Source: an uncultured Nitrososphaerales archaeon
GTDB lineage: Archaea; Thermoproteota; Nitrososphaeria; Nitrososphaerales; Nitrosocaldaceae
Length of the DNA stretch: 64,000 nucleotides
Assembly (NCBI GenBank): GCA_938030895.1
Contig: CALHIV010000005.1
Location: forward strand, 1-64,000
Reading direction: 5' to 3'
Below the pieces are notes generated by a model. The model ran no database searches. It was not told the origin of the DNA and was given only the letters and a program-made list of their open reading frames with translations. Shown here in pieces: positions 17,747-50,091 of the stretch. The first letter of the stretch is position 1; each line of letters starts with the position of its first letter. The position numbers and the translations under genes were made by a program.

Positions 17747-17749
17747 TGG

Positions 17750-17855
17750 CGCCGGGAAGGGGATTCGAACCCCTGCGAGCCTTGCGGCTCACCGGCTCTC
17801 AAGGCCGGCGCATTAGTCCACTCTGCCCTCGGGCTCACAATGAATGAATCCCGGC
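17750..17855 (-). tRNA. trnS-UGA: tRNA-Ser(UGA) with a 20-nt intron between positions 8 and 9
   Basis: The mature form is an 86-nt class II tRNA. Acceptor GCCGGGA pairs with TCCCGGC, the discriminator is G73, and CCA is encoded (17749-17747). The D-arm is GCA/TGC, the anticodon stem CCGGC/GCCGG encloses loop CTTGAGA (anticodon TGA), the variable arm is GAGCC-GCAA-GGCTC, and the T-arm is AGGGG/CCCCT with loop TTCGAAT. Between T8 and G9 lie 20 extra bases (17828-17847). They fold as a bulge-helix-bulge: outer helix TCTGC/GCAGA (3 leader bases plus G1C2, with 10-14), central helix CGGG/CCCG, 3' bulge AGG, 5' bulge ATT. Confidence 0.9.
17828..17847 (-). other. Non-canonical tRNA intron (8/9) of tRNA-Ser
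   Basis: Twenty bases whose removal restores T8-G9 and a normal D-arm. The 3' end of the intron (CCCG) pairs with acceptor bases 3-6 (CGGG), so the acceptor stem cannot form in the usual way until the splicing endonuclease has cut. Confidence 0.8.
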
Positions 17856-17858
17856 AGA

Positions 17859-17866
17859 CCGGCGCC
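17859..17866 (-). other. Leader copy of the acceptor strand, tRNA-Ser
   Basis: GGCGCCGG in the 5' leader, 3 nt before G1, is the exact complement of CCGGCGCC at the tRNA 3' end (17755-17748). It can form an 8-bp surrogate acceptor stem in the unspliced precursor. Confidence 0.6.
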
Positions 17867-17897
17867 TAGAAGATTGCAACGTATATGGTATATATAG

Positions 17898-49755: not shown

Positions 49756-49797
49756 TTCTGACTGCACAATACATGGTTCTGACTGCACAATACATGG
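49756..49797. repeat. 21-bp exact tandem duplication
   Basis: TTCTGACTGCACAATACATGG occurs twice head to tail (49756-49776 and 49777-49797), about 40 bp beyond the tRNA-Met 3' end. It may be a recent duplication. No function is seen. Confidence 0.85.
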
Positions 49798-49878
49798 CAG
49801 ATACGGCCAGTAATGAACTGCTCATCATGGATATGTGCCGGGGGCGGGATTCGAGCCCGCGACCTCCAGATTATGAGT

Positions 49879-49898
49879 CTTGCCCCTCGTGTGGAGGT
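49879..49898 (-). other. Second intron of tRNA-Met, anticodon stem
   Basis: Twenty bases with an internal CCTC-CACAC-GAGG hairpin flanked by bulges AGA on both sides; GAG/CTC and GCC/GGC form the outer and central helices. Site 30/31 gives the best bulge-helix-bulge. Confidence 0.7.
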
Positions 49899-49922
49899 CT
49901 GGCGCTCTAACCAGGCTAAGCT

Positions 49923-49973
49923 TTCAGGCTTATAGCTCTTCTCTTCTATCTACTCTGCTCTACTCTGCTCAGT
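49923..49973 (-). other. First intron (8/9) of tRNA-Met
   Basis: Fifty-one purine-rich bases (GAGCAGAGTAGAGCAGAG and similar). Its last bases (CCTG before bulge AAA) pair with acceptor bases 3-6. Removal restores T8-A9-G10. Confidence 0.8.
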
Positions 49974-49985
49974 ACCCCGGCTTCT

Positions 49986-49992
49986 CCCGGCA
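49986..49992 (-). other. Leader copy of the acceptor strand, tRNA-Met
   Basis: TGCCGGG in the leader, 4 nt before G1, is complementary to CCCGGCA at the tRNA 3' end (49842-49836), giving a possible 7-bp surrogate acceptor stem in the precursor. Confidence 0.6.
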
Positions 49993-50091
49993 TGTAAAGG
50001 TTGTATAAAGCATTTAATTTACTTTATTATGGTCACCAATATACCATATATAAATAGGGCCTATGATCATCATCAGCATACGAGAGTAATA

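Follow-up and report, generated by a model that had tools for sequence, protein, structure and literature searches.

Probable surrogate acceptor strands in the leaders of archaeal tRNA genes with early introns

Archaeal tRNA genes are known to carry introns with bulge-helix-bulge (BHB) splice sites, together with splicing endonuclease genes, several introns in one gene and, in Thermoproteales, introns at the 3/4 position (PMC4090602). All of these are also encountered in the genes described here, the first two of which lie in the window, the 64,000 nucleotides (nt) at positions 1 to 64,000 of contig CALHIV010000005.1 from an uncultured Nitrososphaerales archaeon (GCA_938030895.1). These are a Ser-UGA and an elongator Met tRNA gene, each with a BHB intron between positions 8 and 9 and each with a leader segment resembling its own 5′ acceptor strand. 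The positions 8/9, 7/8, 4/5 and 10/11 are outside the list of intron positions in the text of PMC4090602, a list that ends with 'etc.'. The open-access accounts of archaeal BHB introns that were consulted mention no leader copy of the acceptor strand. More broadly, no leader-borne surrogate acceptor strand was found in the open-access papers searched, and an earlier remark may stand outside that scope in a 2008 paper on Thermoproteales introns, reportedly the source that reviews cite for the 3/4 position. The introns are of a known kind, with the leader surrogate appearing as an undescribed but recurrent feature of several archaeal groups.

Three other systems are comparable in part. In split (trans-spliced) tRNAs, pairing of leader or trailer sequences brings a BHB together, much as here, but our exons are colinear in one gene, in the order 5′ then 3′, and the partner of the leader is the mature 3′ acceptor strand, not the leader of another half. 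Permuted tRNA genes likewise form normal acceptor ends only after splicing, whereas the genes here keep the normal exon order and imply no circular intermediate. Leader pairing with the 3′ RCCA slows RNase P in bacteria (PMC9433436), and 5′ leader bases paired at the 3′ end may restrain RNase P in both cases; however, the bacterial antideterminant extends a normal acceptor stem from position −1, while in these genes the stem has its 5′ strand replaced by a segment lying farther away. The reading that we prefer, with a probability of about 0.66, is that the leader segment serves as a surrogate 5′ acceptor strand, which closes the precursor for as long as the true strand is engaged in the BHB, and that the strand swap and RNase P cleavage follow splicing.

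Anatomy and predicted folding of the precursors

The Ser-UGA (17866-17747) and elongator Met (49992-49836) tRNA genes are both on the minus strand, and their parts are shown in Table 1. The BHB search recovered what the original prediction had claimed for both: an 8/9 intron whose 3′ end pairs with C3-G6 as the central helix (in Met through CCUG, with one G.U), and G1C2 plus leader bases pairing with the 5′ strand of the D arm. In Ser, the inner, central and outer helices have lengths of 1, 4 and 5 bp, respectively. The acceptor-like leader segment was also found as claimed, being an exact complement of the 3′ strand over 8 bp in Ser (GGCGCCGG with CCGGCGCC) and 7 bp in Met (TGCCGGG with CCCGGCA), and in both genes it sits upstream of the leader bases of the outer helix. 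A 4-bp central helix between two 3-nt bulges was obtained for Ser, Met, Pro, Ala and initiator Met, as well as for the crenarchaeal Asp genes treated below; two loci, L044 and L079, gave a BHB only with a relaxed 3-bp helix. Removal of the intron restores a standard tRNA, with the joined exons having 7-bp acceptors and normal positions 8-10.

Folding of the precursors with ViennaRNA gave a mean pairing probability above 0.5 between the copy and the 3′ strand in 43 of 43 cases at 37 °C and in 42 of 43 at 65 °C. The same threshold was passed by the authentic strand with the 3′ strand in none of them at 37 °C and in one at 65 °C.

The interior of the Met 8/9 intron contains a purine-rich run, GAGCAGAGTA repeats and GAGAAGAG, and its length differs among relatives. 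Just downstream of the Met tRNA, at 49756-49797, there is an exact tandem duplication of a 21-mer.

Table 1. Parts of the two tRNA genes of the window, and three further early-intron tRNAs of the same genome.
Feature	Position	Strand	Remarks
Ser leader surrogate strand GGCGCCGG	17859-17866	minus	complements positions 68-75
Ser spacer TCT (TCU)	17856-17858	minus	with G1C2 forms outer BHB helix; partner G10CAGA (5 bp)
Ser authentic 5′ acceptor strand GCCGGGA	17849-17855	minus	positions 1-7 (G1-A7), then U8
Ser 8/9 intron, BHB type, 20 nt	17828-17847	minus	intron 3′ CCCG pairs with C3G4G5G6
Ser second exon	17747-17827	minus	G9 through encoded CCA
Ser 3′ acceptor strand UCCCGGC	17747-17757	minus	then G73, CCA
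Ser TATA-like box TATATATA	17889-17896	minus	centre 26 nt upstream of surrogate strand
Met leader surrogate strand TGCCGGG (UGCCGGG)	49986-49992	minus	complements positions 67-73
Met spacer AGAA	49982-49985	minus	AA + G1C2 form outer BHB helix; partner G10CUU
Met authentic 5′ acceptor strand GCCGGGG	49975-49981	minus	then U8
Met 8/9 intron, 51 nt	49923-49973	minus	before A9; interior varies within genus
Met second intron, 20 nt	49878-49897	minus	anticodon arm
Met 3′ acceptor strand CCCCGGC + A73	49836-49843	minus	
Met AT-rich promoter-like element AAATTAAATG	50011-50020	minus	conserved across genus
Pro-UGG			intron 10/11; leader copy UAGCCCGG
Ala-GGC			intron 7/8; leader copy UGGAUCGG
Initiator Met, A1:U72			intron 4/5; leader copy GGUAGCGGG

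Co-occurrence of leader copies with early introns

A uniform rule was applied to all tRNA rows, by which a copy is a run of at least 7 contiguous pairs with positions 66-75, within 45 nt of G1 and with no more than two G.U pairs. It returned a copy in 43 of the 46 rows labelled early; of the three rows without one, two belong to unrelated tRNAs in the same DNA stretch, which leaves 43/44. Among the other tRNAs a copy was returned in 6 of 156 (about 3%), one of the six (L241) being actually a 3/4-intron gene. These roughly 156 tRNAs filled the control role that the original prediction had given to a tRNA-Arg lacking the 8/9 intron, but in the window no tRNA-Arg was detected by ARAGORN, by Rfam to E = 5, by a T-arm scan or by blastn with the other tRNAs of the genome. 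Leader complementarity largely tracks the presence of an early intron across the genome and its relatives, which is the covariation that had been proposed as a check. Rows from one genus are not independent, and at the level of genus and isotype the curated list holds about 26 early cases with a copy, those without being L199 and possibly L178. When each copy was matched to its own 3′ strand, 176 of 182 pairs formed, against a permuted mean of 125 and maximum of 155, a comparison that is partly circular because the copies had been found by complementarity and that serves as an illustration only.

The copies might be thought to reflect chance or shared GC-rich motifs, with leader conservation serving only the outer BHB helix or the promoter start, given that acceptor sequences are GC-rich and that the outer helix does use two or three leader bases. 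However, a complement of at least 7 bp occurs in only 1.8% of shuffled leaders and a copy in about 3% of the other tRNAs, against 43/44, and the copies are located upstream of the outer-helix bases. Chance complementarity is rejected by these two rates and is largely excluded, and the explanation as a whole is barely credible.

The genome holding the window (G000, 1.37 Mb) was surveyed by a leader-complement scan of its tRNAs and by the BHB search, and five early-intron tRNAs with copies were obtained: Ser, Met, Pro, Ala and initiator Met. The Ser and Met copies recur unchanged in five more genomes of the genus, with the upstream DNA and intron interiors diverging, while the Ala copy was found in six of six genomes. 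The copies of Pro and initiator Met are conserved in the genus as well, and their changes mostly keep pairing (GGUAGCGGG/GGUAGUGGGG and UAGCCCGG/UGGCCCGG, such variants also being written GGTAGCGGG/GGTAGTGGGG and TAGCCCGG/TGGCCCGG), with the U-A73 pair lost in Pro of G005. Over the last 12 leader bases, identity between G000 and a second genome of the genus (G001) is 100% for Ser, 100% for Met and 92% for Pro, against a mean of 45% and a maximum of 83% in 18 control comparisons of tRNAs without early introns; initiator Met has 42%, with an indel in the spacer and the copy retained. The only other clear copy in the genome is GCGGGGU in the leader of Gly-CCC (L002, G000:C11:113996), which was rejected as a sixth case and taken as an accident, this gene being intronless and the copy being missing in the four other genomes of the genus that were compared. 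Two Arg genes of the same genome (L030 and L031) have an intron within the T arm.

In the same order, the 8/9-intron Ser-UGA genes of five further genomes (G006, G018, G038, G047 and G054) carry copies without exception, and the one in Met of G016 is UGUCGGGA. Pro, Ser-GCU and Ala of G006 also show an early intron and a copy. Nearly all intronless Ser and Met genes of the order are without one, a contrast that is seen within a single genus, where G018 has both intron and copy and G040 has neither. GTDB r220 was scanned with a pattern in which the two Ser exons and an insert of 8-38 nt were specified and the leader was left unspecified, so that genes with an 8/9 intron and no leader complementarity, which would speak against the proposal, could also match. 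All archaeal 8/9-intron Ser genes among the matches carry a copy, the taxa being four Bathyarchaeota metagenome-assembled genomes, the thaumarchaeote TA_14, Nitrososphaerales, Nitrosothermus, Methylarchaceae and Nitrosocaldus; the bacterial matches were dismissed as chance or intronless. Early introns and copies were likewise seen in two Pro tRNAs, L182 and L183 of G113, a genome of Bathyarchaeota type judging from its relatives, in which the initiator Met has a copy of 6 bp. Copies such as GGCGCCCCGG, UGCCCCGG and CGCCCCGG were also found in the 3/4-intron Asp and Glu genes of a crenarchaeal family (member G083), two of them reaching only 6 bp, and the intronless relatives have none save a weak 6-bp match in L265. 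The crenarchaeal Glu gene L241 (G249), with its 3/4 intron, has two acceptor-like segments in its leader. The surrogate is not special to 8/9 introns; it also accompanies introns at 3/4, 4/5, 7/8 and 10/11.

Order of processing and competing explanations

A surrogate acceptor stem in the precursor, as first suggested for Ser and Met, is strongly supported by the co-occurrence with early introns over genera, isotypes and classes, by the lack of a copy in nearly all other tRNAs and intronless sister genes, by variants that mostly keep pairing, and by the 43/43 precursor folds. Transcription would start at the copy or slightly upstream of it; TATA-like boxes are found 20-36 nt before the copy in some two thirds of cases, although the scan is noisy (range 13-50). 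In the primary transcript the copy would base-pair with the 3′ acceptor strand, in many cases taking in the discriminator base as well, and the resulting acceptor-like stem would stack on the T arm; the authentic 5′ strand, judged from sequence and folding, would thereby be free to build the BHB with the intron. Splicing endonuclease and ligase would then excise the intron, the authentic strand would displace the surrogate, and RNase P would cut at G1 and remove the leader. A gene for the RNase P RNA is present, as are two tRNA_int_endo genes, and the archaeal splicing endonuclease is the predicted enzyme for these introns. Generally, early introns that interrupt or sequester positions 1-7 come with a surrogate and introns elsewhere come without. 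In Ser and Met, splicing likely precedes RNase P, because earlier cleavage would cost the outer BHB helix its leader bases; this order rests on the anatomy and on the published behaviour of bacterial RNase P.

The copy could instead be chiefly a timing device that holds back RNase P, and perhaps 3′ processing as well, as long as the intron is present, the stem being otherwise unneeded; the reason would be that a cut at G1 takes away leader bases that belong to the outer helix in Ser and Met. The copies often pair with N73 and sometimes with C74C75, and leader pairing with the RCCA inhibits RNase P in bacteria, but that result concerns bases immediately adjoining G1. Moreover, many copies stop short of N73, including those of most crenarchaeal Glu genes and Pro of G006, and copies are also present with early introns that have little or no outer helix, as in Pro. 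We therefore consider a mere timing role unlikely, if worth keeping in view.

Several observations weigh against the surrogate reading. After splicing, nearest-neighbour energies, which leave out tertiary structure and proteins, still favour the surrogate by 2-9 kcal/mol at 37 °C in five of five tRNAs of G000. The folding check thus bore out the pairing of the precursors but not the expected preference for the true strand afterwards, an energetic switch on splicing is not borne out by these energies, and the strand swap would therefore need tertiary folding or a protein. The counts may not be independent, as shared ancestry of some Ser cases is possible. L199 (G006), with a 9/10 intron, has a leader complement of only 5 bp, and for the His gene L178 of G113, where an early intron is suspected, neither a clean BHB solution nor a copy was found. 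Copies without early introns also exist, in L002 (the Gly-CCC gene above), in the intronless Ser gene L053 of G034, where the copy is intact, and in the Pro gene L207 of G038, which has two adjacent AGCCCGG strands. The 5′ acceptor strand of L178 could not be placed, and a split gene is suspected there as an alternative to an early intron. In the genus of L053, the intronless Ser gene L051 (G008) has ACCGGG at the same leader position, which resembles a copy in decay following loss of the intron, and the two may possibly be relics of a lost intron.

Copies without introns such as L053 and L207, together with the intron transposition reported in Thermoproteales (PMC4033280), would suit the explanation that gene duplication or intron transposition left a functionless second acceptor strand in the leader. 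Such a by-product is hard to reconcile with copies that are conserved within the genus when the surrounding DNA is not, with differences from the authentic strand that mostly keep pairing, with copies that in many cases extend to N73, and with intronless sisters that have none; the intronless Gly copy is not conserved. It is decidedly improbable, and a working surrogate strand remains the reading that we prefer.

Implications for archaeal tRNA genes

Whether the arrangement extends to a selected rule across Thermoproteota is, in our estimate, an evenly balanced question. Under such a rule, a pre-tRNA with an intron in positions 1-11 would pass through two states: a disposable leader-encoded strand first builds a tRNA-like stem, splicing then frees its authentic counterpart, and the exchange of the two licenses RNase P, so that splicing gates end maturation. 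Standard tools misplace or miss genes of this kind: in the output of ARAGORN and Rfam the Ser 5′ end falls within the intron (17833/17834), with the intron bases GCCCG taken as acceptor, and early-intron genes like Ser-UGA are probably misannotated widely; the published count for N. cavascurensis is 29 tRNA genes. The leader copy gives a simple rule for finding them. It also explains how introns inside or beside the acceptor stem leave the precursor intact, and it makes the order of splicing and of 5′ and 3′ end processing in archaea testable. Replacement of the surrogate by the authentic strand would offer an example from nature of strand exchange within a stable RNA.
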